IMG/VR virus record: IMGVR_UViG_3300042691_005693
Span: 1-22,192 of that record
Reading direction: 5' to 3' (one strand)
Origin: a virus
DNA length: 22,192 nt
The notes under the pieces are model-generated. The model worked only from the letters and a program-made list of their open reading frames with translations, was not told where the DNA came from and did not search any database. Positions 6,371 to 22,192 of this stretch are shown here, piece by piece (positions within the stretch are counted from its first letter, which is position 1; each line of letters opens with the position of its first letter). A program made the position numbers and the translations under genes.

Positions 6371-6832
6371 TTAATGCATTGTATCATTACCTAGAACGAA
6401 AGTAAATGGTTCTTCTTCTACCTCTTGCTTCTGTTCTTTCCTTTGTTTGGCTTTCTCGAAAATGCTATGGAGGTGATCTACTGCCTTCGAAATATTTTCA
6501 ACAGTATCATCCCCTGCCAACTCTGGCTCATCAATCCCTTCTTGTTCAGAAATCATTCTCTCATAGTGAGGAATCATCATCGTATGTAATCTTTTTGTAA
6601 AGAGCACATCTTTTTTCTGAAAAGTAAAAGTACGTTCTTCAGTAAACTGGCAATATGGTCCAGATGTAATTTGTTCCACCAACCCAGTTGGTTCTAATCT
6701 TGGGAACATACGAATCAACATTGGCGACTCGATTGTAATTATTTCATTATTCTCAAACACTTTAGTAGCCATAATATTTTCACCATTCTGCATTTTCAAG
6801 TAAACGTACTTGTCTTCGTCTTGTGTACTCAT
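6371..6832 (-). CDS. Hypothetical protein with Sm-like N-terminal pattern
   Basis: This is a 153-residue protein whose start overlaps the uvsW stop (ATGA). Residues about 10-45 (VYLKMQNGENIMATKV, EIITIESPMLIRM) follow the strand pattern of Sm/LSm folds: a strand, an N-G turn, a second strand and then an 'I..ESPM.I' strand. An Sm-like protein of putative cyanophage origin has been solved by structural genomics, and small proteins of this kind are common near uvsW or gp55 in aquatic T4-like phages. Residues about 95-140 form a charged helical tail (AVDHLHSIFEKAKQRKEQKQ) and the end is FVLGNDTMH. The Sm assignment rests on pattern only. RNA binding or a role beside gp55 is inference. Confidence 0.7.
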   Translation of the reverse strand: MSTQDEDKYVYLKMQNGENIMATKVFENNEIITIESPMLIRMFPRLEPTGLVEQITSGPYCQFTEERTFTFQKKDVLFTKRLHTMMIPHYERMISEQEGIDEPELAGDDTVENISKAVDHLHSIFEKAKQRKEQKQEVEEEPFTFVLGNDTMH

Positions 6833-8814: not shown

Positions 8815-9348
8815 TTACAAGAACTTGTAGTACGAGAATTTAAACGTAGCTGTTGCTCCAATATATTGCACATCTTGGTTTTGCGCTTGGAACAGCATAG
8901 AAGAAATAGCAGTAGGGAAACAATCGTGGAACTGAATAATTTGATTGTCAGTATTCACGTTAGTTAAGATTTGCAATGTAGCATCTGAATAGTTTGCAGC
9001 CAACTCGCTAATTTTATCTAATTCTGCTTCATCAACTAGATTTACGTATTGACTATATGACTCTGGGAATCCTAGCGCAACCATCCAGTTGTAGATCGCT
9101 TTATAGTTTTTCATTTTCTCATCAACCATAAAACGTATTTCAAATGAATCATATGTTAGTGTTTCTCCAGGAACAGGAACACGTGAGAATGGAGTACCAA
9201 ACTCTGGTTCGCCTAATTGAAGTCCAGGAAGGTTTACTTCTGTAGCAAAAAATGTTAACTCGGGTAACTTATCAATAGAAAGTTTAAATCCATTAGGACT
9301 TAGGAAATTTATATTTTCTGGTACAGGACAGGTTAATACTTGCGCCAT
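8815..9348 (-). CDS. 3: Tail tube terminator gp3-like protein
   Basis: This 177-residue protein is the same size as T4 gp3 (176). It has the tail-tube-family pattern of an N-terminal loop, then LPGLQLGEPEFGTPF, then a VPGETLTYDSFEIRFMVDE strand-turn-strand (about 57-76), and an IYNWMVALGFPES helix, ending in a beta strand ATFKFSYYKFL. In T4, gp3 caps the head-proximal end of the tail tube and helps fix tail length. Gene 3 is found between gene 23 and uvsY in marine T4-like phages, which fits this position. Its start overlaps the stop of the coiled-coil ORF (TAATG). A paralogue of gp19 or gp54 is the alternative, as these share the fold. Confidence 0.7.
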   Translation of the reverse strand: MAQVLTCPVPENINFLSPNGFKLSIDKLPELTFFATEVNLPGLQLGEPEFGTPFSRVPVPGETLTYDSFEIRFMVDEKMKNYKAIYNWMVALGFPESYSQYVNLVDEAELDKISELAANYSDATLQILTNVNTDNQIIQFHDCFPTAISSMLFQAQNQDVQYIGATATFKFSYYKFL

Positions 9349-12712: not shown

Positions 12713-13144
12713 TTAGCTCCCTACTACAGTAGTATCATCTTTAATACCGAATGCGCCTGTTTCAATCTTAGTATCGTAACCAGAAACCTTGCGCAATTTT
12801 AGGTATAACTCAACATACCCTGTACCTGTTTGGGCTACTACTATATCAGAAGTAGACTCAGTATTTTCTGGAGGTAACTCTTGACCATCAAATGCAATAT
12901 AGTCTGCAGTTTCAGTCGGTAAAGTTAAAACACGAACACCATTTCGTGTAATGGTAAGTGTATTAGAATTTTCGCCACCGTGACGAACGGCAGTAATAGT
13001 AACTGTTTGATTGCCAGATGCAAGAGCCTCAGTGGATGCGAGTAAATCTGTTTGTAAGTCAACTGTTGCTGATCCACCATTACCTGCTATCTTAACAACA
13101 GCTTCGGTTTGGGTCAATCTTAAAACGCTTTTGGTCAGAGCCAT
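12713..13144 (-). CDS. Hypothetical protein within the prohead cassette, 143 aa
   Basis: I do not recognise a named family. The protein begins MALTKSVLRLTQTEAVVKIA and is rich in beta-prone Thr/Val segments (ATVDLQTDLL, NQTVTITAVRHGG, NTLTITRNGVRVLTL), with a C-terminal YVELYLKLRKVSGYDTKIET. No signal peptide or membrane segment is seen. It sits one base after the gp68-like gene and two bases before gp21, so it is part of the head-assembly operon. T4 itself has nothing between 68 and 21. A beta-rich virion or decoration protein is a reasonable guess, but only from composition and place. Confidence 0.8.
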   Translation of the reverse strand: MALTKSVLRLTQTEAVVKIAGNGGSATVDLQTDLLASTEALASGNQTVTITAVRHGGENSNTLTITRNGVRVLTLPTETADYIAFDGQELPPENTESTSDIVVAQTGTGYVELYLKLRKVSGYDTKIETGAFGIKDDTTVVGS

Positions 13145-13145
13145 G

Positions 13146-13688
13146 TTATTCCTTAATTTCTCTTACAATACGCATAAAGTTTTCTTTAGACTCTCTCATA
13201 TATTCTACAATTTCAGGACGGTCTTTCAATAACATATTTAGTGTTGATTGAGTACTATTATCAATAGCAACTACTGCACCGTCTTGTAGCGTATAGTCTA
13301 ATTTACCTGCGATTAGAGATCCAGATTTCATTTCAAGAATAACTGGATCTACAGTAAAAATGTTAGAAGAAGCCAATTCAATATATGACTCGATTAAAGT
13401 ATCGGTGATCTTTTCTATATTGTAGTGTTTCTTAATATATGACGCTACTCTATTTTCTGGTATTGTTATATCGATACTCTCTAGTAGTTCTTGTGTAGAT
13501 ATATGCTCTTTAACGTATTCTCTGGCTTCTTCTAAACTCGTAAATTCTAGATCTAATTTTTCGTCATCAATATATACGGTCAAGTCTTTTGCAATTGTAA
13601 CATTAGACTTTTGTATACCAAACTGAAATGATTCCAAGACGTTTGTGACGTCTTGTATTTTCTTCCTTAATGACGAAAAATGAATCAT
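13146..13688 (-). CDS. 68: Prohead core protein gp68-like
   Basis: A 180-residue protein at the place of T4 gene 68 (141 residues), between the gp67-like ORF and gp21, with one extra gene before gp21. It begins MIHFSSLRKKIQDVTNVLES and has many charged helical parts (EEAREYVKEHIS, YIKKHYNIEKITDTLIESYI, EYMRESKENFMRIVREIKE). The assignment is mainly positional, supported by the basic N-terminus and helical character; sequence similarity to T4 gp68 is not obvious by eye. It starts one base after the stop of the gp67-like gene. Confidence 0.6.
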   Translation of the reverse strand: MIHFSSLRKKIQDVTNVLESFQFGIQKSNVTIAKDLTVYIDDEKLDLEFTSLEEAREYVKEHISTQELLESIDITIPENRVASYIKKHYNIEKITDTLIESYIELASSNIFTVDPVILEMKSGSLIAGKLDYTLQDGAVVAIDNSTQSTLNMLLKDRPEIVEYMRESKENFMRIVREIKE

Positions 13689-15462: not shown

Positions 15463-16056
15463 TTAGATACGGATAGGTAGTGAACCGATCGGTGTATCGA
15501 TCGAGACGTTCACACCAACACCAGATGCTGTCGCAGTATTAGATGACCAGAAGTTGTATGTAAATTCTACTTCGAACTCTTCGATAGCATTTGTTGTATC
15601 AAAACTTAACGCAATCGCTCCAATGTTTGTTGGATATGCATCCACAAACTTATACGTCTTGATAATACCACCATTACGATCTAACTGATGAACAATTAAA
15701 TCAGTTTGATAGTCACGTGGATTGGTTCTACCGTTTGTAGTTGTTAGGTTCTGAACGCCATTTGACCATTGTTCGAACGCATTTCTAATATTGAATGTTG
15801 TGTCATTAATAATAGAAACAGTCCATGGTGCAAAGGTACGCTCACCAGCAAAGTGAACTGCACGACCACGATATTGGACAGGAATGTCTTCAATCGTAGC
15901 AGCAGGTAACTGAGCAGCTTTACATAAAAACTGAGCACGAGTACCTGCGATAATGCCAGCGGTAACGTAAGATGGGAATCCTAGTTCTACACGGAACTGA
16001 TTAGGGCGAGCACCACCACCAACCAGTTGCGCTTTAAAATCAGCAATATTTGCCAT
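15463..16056 (-). CDS. 19: Tail tube protein gp19
   Basis: This 197-residue protein (T4 gp19: 163) has the tube-protein start MANIADFKAQLVGGGARPNQ, then LCKAAQLPAATIEDIPVQYR, RTFAPWTVSIIND, FEQWSNG and the diagnostic YPTNIGAIALSFDTTNAIEE followed by a final VEFTYNFW strand. It stacks as hexamers to form the inner tail tube through which DNA is delivered. It follows the sheath gene after 38 bases with an AAGGAG ribosome binding site, and a CTAAATA late-promoter-like box lies in that gap. The last 30 residues are an extension rich in Ser/Thr/Ala. Confidence 0.95.
   Translation of the reverse strand: MANIADFKAQLVGGGARPNQFRVELGFPSYVTAGIIAGTRAQFLCKAAQLPAATIEDIPVQYRGRAVHFAGERTFAPWTVSIINDTTFNIRNAFEQWSNGVQNLTTTNGRTNPRDYQTDLIVHQLDRNGGIIKTYKFVDAYPTNIGAIALSFDTTNAIEEFEVEFTYNFWSSNTATASGVGVNVSIDTPIGSLPIRI
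15484..15504. repeat. Adjacent palindromes at the gp19 3' end
   Basis: ACCGATCGGT (15484-15493) and TCGATCGA (15497-15504) are perfect palindromes. Together the two CGATCG cores can form a 6-bp hairpin with a 6-base loop (15486-15503) in the gp19 mRNA, about 20 bases before the stop. It is inside codons and not followed closely by a T-run. Confidence 0.35.
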
Positions 16057-17900: not shown

Positions 17901-19481
17901 TTAGAAATTCAACGGTGCAACTTCCTCTTCCCTTCCATCCGAAATAAACCCGAATGGAGTTAACTGTTCTTCTATTGCTTGTATTTGCTTTTCGTATATA
18001 ACAGTTCTCATGTTAATATCAGTTAATTCTTTAAAATATGGCTGGGTTGTTAACCACCCAAAAAGAACCAAAGTCATGACAAGATCGTCATTATAACCAT
18101 CATCTGCAGCGAAGGAACCCTTCGATTCGATAAAGGTCGAAATTTCAGAAATTGTATCATAATCAGTGACTAACAATTTCTTTTCTTCAATCAAAGTTTT
18201 CAGATTCATACAGCCACGTCTTTTGACTGCTTTATCTGTAAAAACTCCTAATTGAGATTTACCACCACCAAAACCACCAGAAATAAATTGACCTTTGGTA
18301 GTTCTATTGACGAACAATAAATTTTCGTATTCTAATTCGTTGTATAAAATATCTGTGACTTGGTCGCTAGTATTTTGCTCAACCAAGACAAAGGCATTAT
18401 TATATTCCCTTGCAACCTTTTCAATAATAGAAGGGTAGAACATGGGACTAACAGTATTATTTCTATATTTAGCTACAATGCGATATGGCACTTCTGACAC
18501 ATCTGTTACGGTAAAGGCTGAATAGTCGCCTTCCACCCCTCGCCCAATATCAGCTACTAATGTATAGACGTGCCCTTCTTTTGGAACGTCTATTACGTCA
18601 AAGCCATCTTTTCTAAACACCCATGGCATTGGCGACATTTGCGCAATAGTATCGGCAGCGATGAGGGTAAGGGCAGAACCCAAAAACTTACAAAGAACTT
18701 CTTGGTTAAACTTAATTTCGCCAAGCTGCCTTCTTTGTTCCTCAGCCCATACTTCATCCCTTCCAGGAATTTTCCAGTAGGGGATAAACAAACTCTTAAA
18801 GTCATTTCTTCCCTGCTCAGCATCATTCCAAAATTTCCAGAAATGATTATAGCCAAGTGGCGTAGATGTAATCAGAATCTTAGTAGTTTTACCAGCAGAA
18901 ATAGTAGGGTATACAGATGTAAAAAACGATTCAGCAATCTGATTAGGAATAATTGCTGCTTCGTCAATATACAGTAAGTTGACCGACTTAGAACGAATAC
19001 CTGAGATAGTAGTCGCTGCAGTAAAAACCTTGCTACCGTTTTCTAATTCAATATCACCTTTGTTCCAAGTGGTTACGCCTTGTTGTAACCAGATAGGCAA
19101 GTTCTCAAACATTAACTGATAACGTGATAAAATCTCTTGAGCTGTCTTTGCTTTGTTAGCCAGAACAGCAACAGTCTTACTATCGTTAAATATCGTGTAC
19201 CATAGAATATATGCAGCAGAGGTAGTTGTCTTTCCTTGCTGACGACCTTCCATCAAAATAACCTTACGGTGATTATGGATTAGATCAACTTTTTCTTTTT
19301 GACATTCATATAGTTTAAATGGTTGTAACCCTTCATCGAGGGTTACAATATAGCAATAATTATCAATAAAATAAATTGGGTCTTGTGAGCATTTTACGTA
19401 TTCTTGTATCTGCTCAGGTGTAAACTGTAATTTTACACCAGCAGCTTTTAACGAAGAATTCGAATTATAATGCTCAGCCAT
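17901..19481 (-). CDS. 17: Terminase large subunit gp17
   Basis: This 526-residue packaging motor (T4 gp17: 610) has the ATPase Walker A GRQQGKTT (79-86), Walker B LLYIDEAA (169-176) and a coupling motif ITSTPLG (204-210). The RNaseH-type nuclease domain has D311 in VADIGRG, E368 in LVEQNTS and the paired DD at 465-466 in YNDDLVM. It cuts concatemeric DNA and drives it into the prohead through gp20. Its ATG overlaps the stop of the fibre-like ORF (TAATG). A 10-bp perfect hairpin lies in its early coding region. No gene for the small terminase gp16 is next to it, which is unusual. Confidence 0.97.
   Translation of the reverse strand: MAEHYNSNSSLKAAGVKLQFTPEQIQEYVKCSQDPIYFIDNYCYIVTLDEGLQPFKLYECQKEKVDLIHNHRKVILMEGRQQGKTTTSAAYILWYTIFNDSKTVAVLANKAKTAQEILSRYQLMFENLPIWLQQGVTTWNKGDIELENGSKVFTAATTISGIRSKSVNLLYIDEAAIIPNQIAESFFTSVYPTISAGKTTKILITSTPLGYNHFWKFWNDAEQGRNDFKSLFIPYWKIPGRDEVWAEEQRRQLGEIKFNQEVLCKFLGSALTLIAADTIAQMSPMPWVFRKDGFDVIDVPKEGHVYTLVADIGRGVEGDYSAFTVTDVSEVPYRIVAKYRNNTVSPMFYPSIIEKVAREYNNAFVLVEQNTSDQVTDILYNELEYENLLFVNRTTKGQFISGGFGGGKSQLGVFTDKAVKRRGCMNLKTLIEEKKLLVTDYDTISEISTFIESKGSFAADDGYNDDLVMTLVLFGWLTTQPYFKELTDINMRTVIYEKQIQAIEEQLTPFGFISDGREEEVAPLNF
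19323..19348. repeat. 10-bp perfect hairpin inside gp17
   Basis: TTGTAACCCT (19323-19332) and AGGGTTACAA (19339-19348) are perfect 10-base inverted arms with a 6-base loop. They lie 133-158 bases into the gp17 coding sequence and encode part of IVTLDEGLQP. No T-run follows, so it is not an ordinary terminator. Confidence 0.6.
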
Positions 19482-20422
19482 TATACTACAGTAATAGTCC
19501 CTAGCATTGTTGCTGGGTTTGATTTACTGCGATACTTAAATGTAGCTCCTGTAGCTGCGTCCATAGGAATGGTAAATGTAACAGTTTCGTTTTGGTCAGC
19601 TTCGTTTCTTGTTGCGCCAGTAGAAGAAATATAGGCTGTAGCAGGTGCTACGTTAGAACTATCTAGTATTTCTAAAATTTGACCAGCACGTGTATTTGTG
19701 AAACGATAAGTAAATCCACGGTACACAAATAGAGTTGGGTCAGAAAGACCAGCTGTAGGCATACCAGTGCCTGTAACAACATATTCAGTAGTGGTCGCAC
19801 CACCAAAACTAAATGTTATAGCAGGTTGTAAAAATAAATTACCCTTTGCACCATTTACTGTTCTAACACCATCGTTGTTAATTTGATATGCTGTATTTAC
19901 AGAAGATGTTAAGGTAATACCGTCGCCAGCAATAACAGCTAAGTCATTGTTTGCAGATGGATTTAAAGACGCTAATCTTAATGTAATTTGGTTAGCGAAT
20001 AATGTTTCTGCAGTTAAATTGTATGTAGTATTGGTGTCAGTAGAGTTTAACGTAATAGTATCAGCATCAGTTCTAACAACAGTCATGTTAGTTCCTGAAG
20101 CGAGTTTTACGTTATCTTGAGATGCATCGGTACCAGTCAAACGTAAGTTAACACCACCTGTTGCAGATTCTGCTGATAGAGCATACTGCGTATTGGTATC
20201 GGTTGCGATACTTTGCGCAACAAAAGATGTTCCGTTCCAACGCAGAGCATCGCCTGTGCTCGCTCCTGCAGTATTAACTTTTAAAGTAGTTGCGCCAGCA
20301 GAACCACCAAGAGCATCATACAGTTCTGTCAATGTACTGTTAACTTTAATACCAGCATCACGGAGTGTATCACCAGTACCATCGTTTGGTGTAGTACCAA
20401 CATTAATTAGTTGTTTTGCCAT
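19481..20422 (-). CDS. Fibre-like virion protein with beta repeats, in the gp16 position
   Basis: A 313-residue Thr/Ser/Asn-rich protein. Residues 5-36 (INVGTTPNDGTGDTLRDAG and VNSTLTELYDALG) are a motif known from the N-termini of phage fibre and structural proteins, thought to anchor them to the virion. Two imperfect repeats follow at about 74-125 and 128-172, each with TDTNTxY, an LRL strand, a SxNDxxL-like turn and DTITL or GITL. The end (230-313: LFVYRGFTYRF, VTFTIPMDAA, TFKYRSKSNP, LGTITVV) resembles a small beta-sandwich domain common at the C-terminus of marine phage structural proteins. It has AAGGAG before ATG 20422, lies 14 bases after gp15, and overlaps gp17. Gene 16 is normally here. 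A neck or head fibre is a possible role (inference). Confidence 0.8.
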   Translation of the reverse strand: MAKQLINVGTTPNDGTGDTLRDAGIKVNSTLTELYDALGGSAGATTLKVNTAGASTGDALRWNGTSFVAQSIATDTNTQYALSAESATGGVNLRLTGTDASQDNVKLASGTNMTVVRTDADTITLNSTDTNTTYNLTAETLFANQITLRLASLNPSANNDLAVIAGDGITLTSSVNTAYQINNDGVRTVNGAKGNLFLQPAITFSFGGATTTEYVVTGTGMPTAGLSDPTLFVYRGFTYRFTNTRAGQILEILDSSNVAPATAYISSTGATRNEADQNETVTFTIPMDAATGATFKYRSKSNPATMLGTITVV

Positions 20423-20436
20423 TTTCGTCTTACTCC

Positions 20437-21189
20437 TTAGAAATTATCCTCATCCCAATTCTCATTTACAGTAGCAATTGGGGTTGCTTGTTCAGCAGTA
20501 TATAGTGGTTTAACATCGCCCACAGTTTGCACATATACTTTCTTAATTGGTCCACCAGTATCGGTAGGTCCAAACAAATTAACTTTTAAACTAAAGGTAA
20601 GAGTATAAGTCACAAACCTTCTAGTTTGAAAATCGCCATCATAGTCATCTTGAACTGAAACCGAATTCAAAATAACTGGAACATCTGTTACAACATTCAT
20701 CTCAGGCACAGACTTCAGCGATAGCGTAAACTCTGGCGTAAAATATGGAAGAATCTGCTCTACAATTTGCATAGCATCTTCTTGTGTTTTTGTCAATACA
20801 TATAGAGATATATCTATATTGTATGGAACTGGCGTATACATTCTTGTATATGATTCTGGTGTAGCGCCAGGACCAGTGGTTGCTGGTTTATAGCAAGCCA
20901 ACTGGTTCATCCTATTCAGTTTTCTGGTAGCATCATATGAGATACCAGTAATCTCAAAAGACATTCGAGGCAGTGTTATATAGGTTGAGTTTTCCAGCGT
21001 TGGATCTTGCTCAATACGCACTAACCACTTTTCTTTTGGTGCATACGCAATAGGAACTTTAAGAGTCTGCGCAATCGCATCAGTCCCGTCTTTCATCTTG
21101 CGTTCAATTTTAATGTTACTAAACAGACTACCGAAGGCTACGATAGTCTTACGTATAATACCATGATAGAATGTATCACCGACTAACAT
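20437..21189 (-). CDS. 15: Tail sheath terminator / stabilizer gp15
   Basis: This 250-residue protein (T4 gp15: 272) has the family traits MLVGDTFYHGIIRKTIVAFG at the start, ITLPRMSFEITGISYDATRK, YTPVPYNIDISLYVLTKTQE and ILPYFTPEFTLSLK, and then a final strand-rich part (RFVTYTLTFSLKVNLFGP). In T4 the gp15 hexamer caps the contracted-sheath end of the tail and joins it to the gp13-gp14 neck. Its ATG overlaps the gp14 stop as TAATG. The charged C-terminus ends NENWDEDNF. Confidence 0.95.
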   Translation of the reverse strand: MLVGDTFYHGIIRKTIVAFGSLFSNIKIERKMKDGTDAIAQTLKVPIAYAPKEKWLVRIEQDPTLENSTYITLPRMSFEITGISYDATRKLNRMNQLACYKPATTGPGATPESYTRMYTPVPYNIDISLYVLTKTQEDAMQIVEQILPYFTPEFTLSLKSVPEMNVVTDVPVILNSVSVQDDYDGDFQTRRFVTYTLTFSLKVNLFGPTDTGGPIKKVYVQTVGDVKPLYTAEQATPIATVNENWDEDNF

Positions 21190-21845
21190 TAGTTTACATC
21201 TCCAAACGGATTGTTCTTATCAAATAACGCTGTCGCTGCTTCTGTCTTAAATCTGGTGTTATCACCATATGAATCAGACTTCTGAACATCTGAGTTAACT
21301 GTGATGTCAAAAGACTTCAATGATTCAAACGCATCAAGTGTCGGCAATCCTGTATCAATCTTCTCAGAAGCATATTGAAACAACTCAACTTGTAATTTAT
21401 AAACATACAATTTTCCAAGTTGATAGAATGGATCTTGGTGTTGAACAAATTTGATTTCAAACATACCCTTTGTTAAAGGGAAATATAATAGATCCCCTTC
21501 GTTTGGTCTGTTTGGAATAGTGGTCTGACCAAATCTTCCAACAAGTTGCTCCCAACGACGACGTGCTACGGTAAGCGTAGCAGACTGCTCATTCATTAGT
21601 CCAAATTTCTGAATGAATGGACCTTGTCCATCAAAGTTATCCACATTCTCGAAATACATCTCTATTGGATATGCAGTTTTAAACTTGCTCAAACGATCTT
21701 CACCAAGAATCTCATCTTTAGCGATAAGTGTTCTTGGAATGTAGTAAAGGTCTTGTCCGTAAATAGACAAGGACTCAACAATCAGATCTTCAATTAGATA
21801 CTGTTCGTTTTTAGTACCATGGCTGAAGTATACATTTCTAGCCAT
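21189..21845 (-). CDS. 14: Neck protein gp14
   Basis: This 218-residue protein (T4 gp14: 256) shows the conserved start MARNVYFSHGTKNEQYLIED, then IYGQDLYYIPRTLI, DEILGEDRLSKF, a MYFENVDNFDGQGPFIQKFG segment and RRRWEQLVGR, with a C-terminal DAFESLKSFD. In T4, gp14 and gp13 form the neck that closes the filled head and accepts the tail. It starts three bases after the gp13 stop, with a GGGG-type ribosome binding site inside the gp13 end, and overlaps gp15. Confidence 0.95.
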   Translation of the reverse strand: MARNVYFSHGTKNEQYLIEDLIVESLSIYGQDLYYIPRTLIAKDEILGEDRLSKFKTAYPIEMYFENVDNFDGQGPFIQKFGLMNEQSATLTVARRRWEQLVGRFGQTTIPNRPNEGDLLYFPLTKGMFEIKFVQHQDPFYQLGKLYVYKLQVELFQYASEKIDTGLPTLDAFESLKSFDITVNSDVQKSDSYGDNTRFKTEAATALFDKNNPFGDVN

Positions 21846-21848
21846 AGA

Positions 21849-22192
21849 TTACCCCATAAAGAATTCAAGTGGTGCCGATTTATTTCTTAGGTCTTCTTCT
21901 AAGTTGCGCATTTCTTCAATGGCTTCTCTATAGAGTCCATCGCCATCTACCGTTACACCACCTGGAAGTTGAAGACCATTAAATTTCTTTAGATTAGTAC
22001 CCCATTGTTTTTTAAACAATGCTGTTGTGTAATGTTTTAACCATTGCTCACCCCACATTTTAGTGAACACAGTTGGATCGAGCACACGATATGCTTCTAC
22101 TAGAACAAATTGTCCTTCTTGCACTTCTGTACCCCAATCAATATCGATGTATAATCTGTCTTGCAATCTATTGAACCTATACATTACTGAAC
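21849..22192 (-). CDS. 13: Neck protein gp13 (C-terminal part)
   Basis: The frame is open to the right edge of the window: the codons before the methionine at 22184 (GTA, TCA) contain no stop, so this is the C-terminal about 114 residues of a longer protein (T4 gp13: 309). The visible part has a DRLYIDIDWG strand, VLVEAYRVLDPTVFTKMWGE, KHYTTALFKKQWGTNLKKF and LPGGVTVDGDGLYREAIEEM, all typical of the gp13 end, and stops with LEFFMG. gp13 connects portal and gp14 in the neck. The methionine at 22184 should not be taken as the start. Confidence 0.9.
   Translation of the reverse strand, partial: SVMYRFNRLQDRLYIDIDWGTEVQEGQFVLVEAYRVLDPTVFTKMWGEQWLKHYTTALFKKQWGTNLKKFNGLQLPGGVTVDGDGLYREAIEEMRNLEEDLRNKSAPLEFFMG

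Follow-up and report, generated by a model that had tools for sequence, protein, structure and literature searches.

The DNA analysed here, called the window throughout, is a 22,192-bp IMG/VR fragment of a viral genome, the remainder of which lies outside it. Near one end of the window, a late operon on the minus strand encodes gp13, gp14, gp15 and gp17, and the slot between gp15 and gp17, canonically occupied by gp16 in T4-like phages, holds a gene for a 313-residue protein, as an earlier note on this DNA had recognized (Table 1). The ORF has an ATG start 14 bp beyond the gp15 stop codon, served by the ribosome-binding site AAGGAG; its own stop codon overlaps the gp17 start in the sequence TAATG. 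The N-terminal motif PNDGTGD singled out in the earlier note occupies residues 12-18, and two beta repeats of the DTNTxY type were read by eye at about residues 73-125 and 130-175, a region modelled at a pLDDT of 30-40. Compared with three relatives, the gene gives a dN/dS of 0.115-0.158, and the same measure gives 0.039-0.085 for gp14, gp15 and gp17, all of these figures being rough because dS is near or above 1. The ORF is a real gene under purifying selection. Its GC3 is 0.204, versus 0.30-0.32 for gp14, gp15 and gp17.

Table 1. Features at the gp13-gp17 end of the window (window coordinates).
Feature	Position	Strand	Evidence
gp9-type baseplate wedge/tail-fibre connector-like protein, 313 aa	19481..20422	-	phrog_677, PF07880, T4 gp10/gp9 matches, dN/dS
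N-terminal gp9/gp10-type module with PNDGTGD, about residues 1-46	20285..20422	-	T4 gp10 match, profile, PF07880
Two DTNTxY-type beta repeats, about residues 73-175	19898..20206	-	read by eye, low confidence in model
Predicted C-terminal cupredoxin-fold domain, about residues 199-313, Gln/Ser/Asn/Met	19484..19828	-	VIA-align, Foldseek, ligand columns
gp17 terminase large subunit	17901..19481	-	PF03237, PF17289
gp15 tail sheath stabiliser	20437..21189	-	phrog_227 6e-81, PF16724
gp14 head closure	21189..21845	-	phrog_460 1e-74
gp13 neck protein, truncated by window end	21849..22190	-	phrog_211 7e-18

Two further regions of the window are recorded here. Between the portal and head protease genes, at 12713-13688 (-), are ORFs of 143 and 180 residues that have no PHROG match below 0.04 and, by position, could be gp67/gp68-type core proteins. 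A 153-residue protein encoded beside the late sigma factor, at 6371-6832 (-), matches phrog_471 and, weakly and below the cut-off, Pfam Sm_like (E 5.9e-4).

The 313-residue protein is, judged by its sequence matches, a gp9-type baseplate wedge/tail-fibre connector. In PHROGs, it matches phrog_677 ('baseplate wedge tail fiber protein connector') at E 3.7e-40, in two stretches that comprise the N- and C-terminal domains, and its sole Pfam match is to PF07880 (T4_gp9_10_N), at 29.8 bits against a cut-off of 25. A phmmer search matched T4 gp10 to residues 3-61 (E 1.4e-5) and also the N-terminus of T4 gp9 (E 0.025), and a 29-row profile matched the same two proteins at E 1.5e-13 and 1e-8, respectively; the similarity to T4 gp9/gp10 is restricted to the N-terminal part, the rest having no sequence match to them. 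PF07880 is matched in all 29 aligned members of the family alignment (A2), cyanophage gp9 proteins cover residues 1-313 in two pieces (tblastn), and, among viral structures, the protein is matched best (E 2.1e-14) by a baseplate wedge tail fiber connector from a cyanophage. Because of the matches to T4 gp9/gp10, PF07880 and cyanophage gp9, PNDGTGD is identified as the gp9/gp10 N-terminal signature. The earlier description of the protein as fibre-like was right in kind and is refined by its family, the gp9/gp10 baseplate wedge. No terminase family in PHROGs or Pfam matches the protein, which has no homology to PF11053 or phrog_445. The gene lies away from the usual address of phrog_677 beside gp7/gp10/gp8, although an address is not a defining biochemical feature. 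Of the nine records over 78 kb, eight gave no PF07880 match; hence not every member of the clade has a gp9-type protein.

The C-terminal part of the protein was modelled with AlphaFold2 on 29 aligned relatives, superseding a single-sequence model with a pLDDT of 40.5. The whole model is of low confidence (pLDDT 59.8, pTM 0.40), and its sole reliable part spans about residues 199-313, confidently modelled with block means of 79-93. This domain, described as sandwich-like in the earlier note, is predicted to adopt a cupredoxin fold: it aligns with 2dv6_A (VIA-align Z 10.9, rmsd 1.9, 94 residues aligned) and matches 6tfo_B in Foldseek (E 8.7e-7). A C-terminal profile built from 16 relatives, with the window's lineage left out, matched copper nitrite reductase (E 1.4e-4) and amicyanin (E 4.4e-4), and the CxxHxxM copper loop of these proteins aligns with a QCTxHxxM motif in the relatives. 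Pfam Copper-bind is matched by the C-termini of 5 of the 16 relatives, at best at 1.7e-7.

Four alignment columns, which we take to be copper ligands from these alignments and from the general make-up of type-1 copper sites, hold His, Cys, His and Met in 24 of the 29 rows of A2. The same columns read Gln, Ser, Asn and Met in the window, L005 and L006; Glu, Ser, Asn and Met in L008; and Asn, Asp, Asn and Lys in L011. Of the His-Cys-His-Met set that defines type-1 copper proteins, the window protein retains Met alone. All five ligand-losing rows have their address between gp15 and gp17, and they are not independent, because four of them form one clade; the gene of L231, also located after gp15, retains its ligands. 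The other 23 rows adjoin gp10/gp8-type baseplate genes, and every one of them retains the four positions. The nitrite-reductase fold match prompted a possible link to viral nirK, which was dropped since the NirK described there is a separate gene (PMC8115048). In the literature searched, mostly outside subscription papers, we found neither a phage tail protein described as having a cupredoxin domain nor a relocated gp16.

The slot was compared across 89 loci, in 87 of which both flanks could be measured; these represent 86 distinct contigs, L002 and L043 being on the same one. In 70 of the 87, gp15 and gp17 are separated by 17 bp or less with no gene between them. The slot contains gp16 at five loci and a gene of the 313-residue type at 11, the latter arrangement being found in ten distinct contigs besides the window. 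L086 stands by itself (1/87), with a 571-bp insert where its close relatives have no sequence at all. Because gp15 abuts gp17 in most relatives, loss of gp16 from the slot and gain of the fibre gene are separate events. On a TerL tree of 77 rows, the three slot states together require five label changes. Rows with the fibre gene in the slot fall in two places, the window, L043 and L009 grouping at 100/100 and L011 lying apart; rows with gp16 in the slot (L073, L097, L109, L117) are nested among closed-slot rows, and a single move of gp16 is therefore not proved on gp17. The gp17 proteins of L073, L097, L109, L116 and L117 are 70-73% identical to that of the window, and their gp14/gp15 proteins 35-45% (L109 has no gp14 match), a pattern that looks like horizontal exchange of gp17. 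The neighbouring interval, between gp14 and gp15, is a second slot for gp9/gp10-N-type proteins: ORFs of 90-893 residues with such an N-terminus are located there in seven of the 89 loci (L055, L057, L059, L063, L080, L088, L095).

Gp16 itself was sought with an HMM that combined the gp16 of S-PM2, Syn1 and Melnitz with 40 distinct gp16 sequences of the relocated kind. Run against the window in six frames, it gave no match at E values up to 10, in agreement with the earlier note, which saw no gp16-like ORF. Nine of 13 related records contain a PF11053 gp16; the remaining four, at 31-60 kb, are the shortest of the set. The gene is remote from gp17 in eight of the nine and lies immediately upstream of it in G011. 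In the close relative G002, identity to the late proteins of the window ranges from 84% for the connector to 98% for gp19, and the record, of 105,573 bp, was covered whole. The G002 gp16 (phrog_445, 1.1e-38) occupies 102446-102724 (+), some 40 kb away from gp17 (-), between a gp19-like tube gene (gp19.2) and a gp26-type hub gene, with gp2 and a tape-measure-like gene as further neighbours. A search with G002 gp16 found 80 loci, chosen by similarity and some of them near-identical, none of which has gp17 less than 6 kb from gp16; the hub gene adjoins gp16 in 78, the contig stopping short in the other two, and the tube gene is near gp16 in 79. In the Sinorhizobium phage phiM12, the order gp48(-), gp4, gp2, gp19.2, gp26, without gp16 between, represents the empty site, and its relative phiN3 has the order gp15-gp16-gp17. 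The hub site of cyanophage S-RIM14 is also without gp16, and gp16 is still between gp15 and gp17 in S-PM2, Syn1, S-RIM8, S-B43 and Melnitz. In the seven records common to two of the searches, several of which share a species, gp16 is on the strand of gp17 and 1.3-7.2 kb away.

These data support the conclusion that gp16 has moved, as is clear in G002, and the window's own genome presumably carries it at the same gp19.2-gp26 address. Of the possibilities listed in the earlier note, relocation has thus been traced to a site in a close relative, and the ideas that gp16 is dispensable or replaced lack support, as gp16 is intact elsewhere and most related slots are empty. A functional replacement, in which the 313-residue protein would act with gp17 in packaging, draws on the position of the gene and its translational overlap with gp17; we rejected it as nearly refuted, given the lack of any terminase match, the presence of gp16 elsewhere in G002, and the 70 of 87 related loci with neither gene in the slot. 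The late-promoter motif TATAAATA has one match in L145, three in L005 and two in the window, none above chance, and we therefore make no claim on the expression of the moved gp16. As a separate observation on tube genes, the window encodes a second tail-tube-type protein after the major capsid gene, at 8815-9348 (-) (phrog_45, 9e-37); counting gp19 (15463-16056) and the gp19-like neighbour of G002 gp16 as well, the lineage has three genes of this type.

The gene content of G002 also bears on where the 313-residue protein may sit in the virion. In this whole record, it is the sole protein with a gp9/gp10-type N-terminus. Genes for gp6, gp7-like, gp8 and VrlC-like proteins are present, the VrlC label resting on position and on naming by synteny with Syn19, and the gp7-like and gp8 genes are 17 bp apart with no gp9 between them. 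The earlier note suggested a neck or whisker-like appendage, and a gp9-type N-terminal module could have been reused as the anchor of a short neck or collar fibre, its gene travelling with gp13-gp15 as their products assemble there. The gene's position in the ten other contigs and the seven loci with gp9-N-type ORFs between gp14 and gp15 are consistent with this arrangement, which we nonetheless find unlikely: the family and the best structural match are those of the baseplate, and the 23 A2 rows located away from the neck genes all adjoin gp10/gp8-type genes. Moreover, fibre and virion-protein genes directly precede gp13 in G002, and because tail-fibre genes in this lineage run into gp13-gp14-gp15, the neighbouring neck genes argue only weakly for a neck site. 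Fibritin_C (PF07921), the mark of fibritin/whisker (wac) proteins, is absent from the window protein and from all nine records searched, where absence from fragments is in turn weak evidence. A baseplate connector is favoured over a neck appendage. As background, virion proteomics of S-CREM2 includes baseplate wedge proteins as well as a short tail fibre (PMC10665884).

It might also be asked whether the protein is an accessory receptor-binding or host-range factor, acquired in an insertion hotspot and dispensable as a connector. The g15-g18 interval is described as a hyper-variable region in cyanomyoviruses (PMC2984593), the gene is patchily present, and its low GC3 sets it apart from its neighbours; we regard this origin as decidedly improbable in view of the full-length gp9 architecture, the purifying selection and the status of the protein as the only one of gp9/gp10 type in G002.

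For the locus as a whole, we consider it fairly probable that a gp9-type connector has relocated to the gp15-gp17 slot, that its cupredoxin domain is without type-1 copper, and that gp16 has been translocated. The N-terminal module would most likely dock on the baseplate wedge in the manner of T4 gp9/gp10, and would be followed by a short beta-repeat shaft and by the cupredoxin-fold domain, which may carry or contact the tail fibre or the host surface. In the window lineage, this domain has lost three of the four type-1 ligand positions and should consequently act simply as a beta-sandwich adaptor devoid of type-1 copper. The connector gene lies at gp15-gp17 of the late operon instead of the relatives' usual gp7-gp8 place, in a slot that would have been vacated when gp16 moved, by itself, into the gp4-gp2-gp19.2-[gp16]-gp26 cluster on the other strand. 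Its product, the small terminase, would work in trans from that site. It is conceivable, if doubtful, that the blue-copper (cupredoxin) domain of the fibre connector, with its full set of type-1 ligands in most relatives, serves metal- or redox-dependent host recognition or tail triggering, and that in the window lineage the gene moved to the slot vacated by gp16 with its metal site disabled, gp16 alone having passed to the gp19.2-gp26 junction.

The finding is mostly explained: a known protein family occupies an unusual address, and a small-terminase gene has moved. Since gp16 has changed its address, TerS and TerL need not adjoin in T4-like phages, and in annotation gp16 should not be called missing from the state of the slot alone. 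The points of interest are the predicted cupredoxin tip with its lost ligands and the clean translocation of gp16. As most members retain the putative copper ligands and one lineage has lost them, whether a phage tail protein can bind copper is open to direct testing.

Among known systems, the cyanophage gp9 connector of Syn19 shares with the window protein both the N-terminal module and the predicted C-terminal cupredoxin-fold domain, as reflected in the match over residues 1-313. However, Syn19 gp9 has 412 residues and the window protein is about 100 residues shorter; the cyanophage gene adjoins gp10/gp8, whereas that of the window is at gp15-gp17; and the window protein is without three of the four copper-ligand residues. 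T4 gp10 and gp9 (PDB 2fl8, 5iv5, 1s2e) share the N-terminal module with its DGTGD-type motif. The cupredoxins, namely amicyanin, plastocyanin and the domains of copper nitrite reductase, resemble the C-terminal domain in their beta-sandwich fold, as predicted, but carry His/Cys/His/Met in place of Gln/Ser/Asn/Met, and the window domain belongs to a virion protein. T4-like gp16 (PF11053, phrog_445), finally, is the canonical occupant of the slot and is not homologous to the 313-residue protein now found in it.
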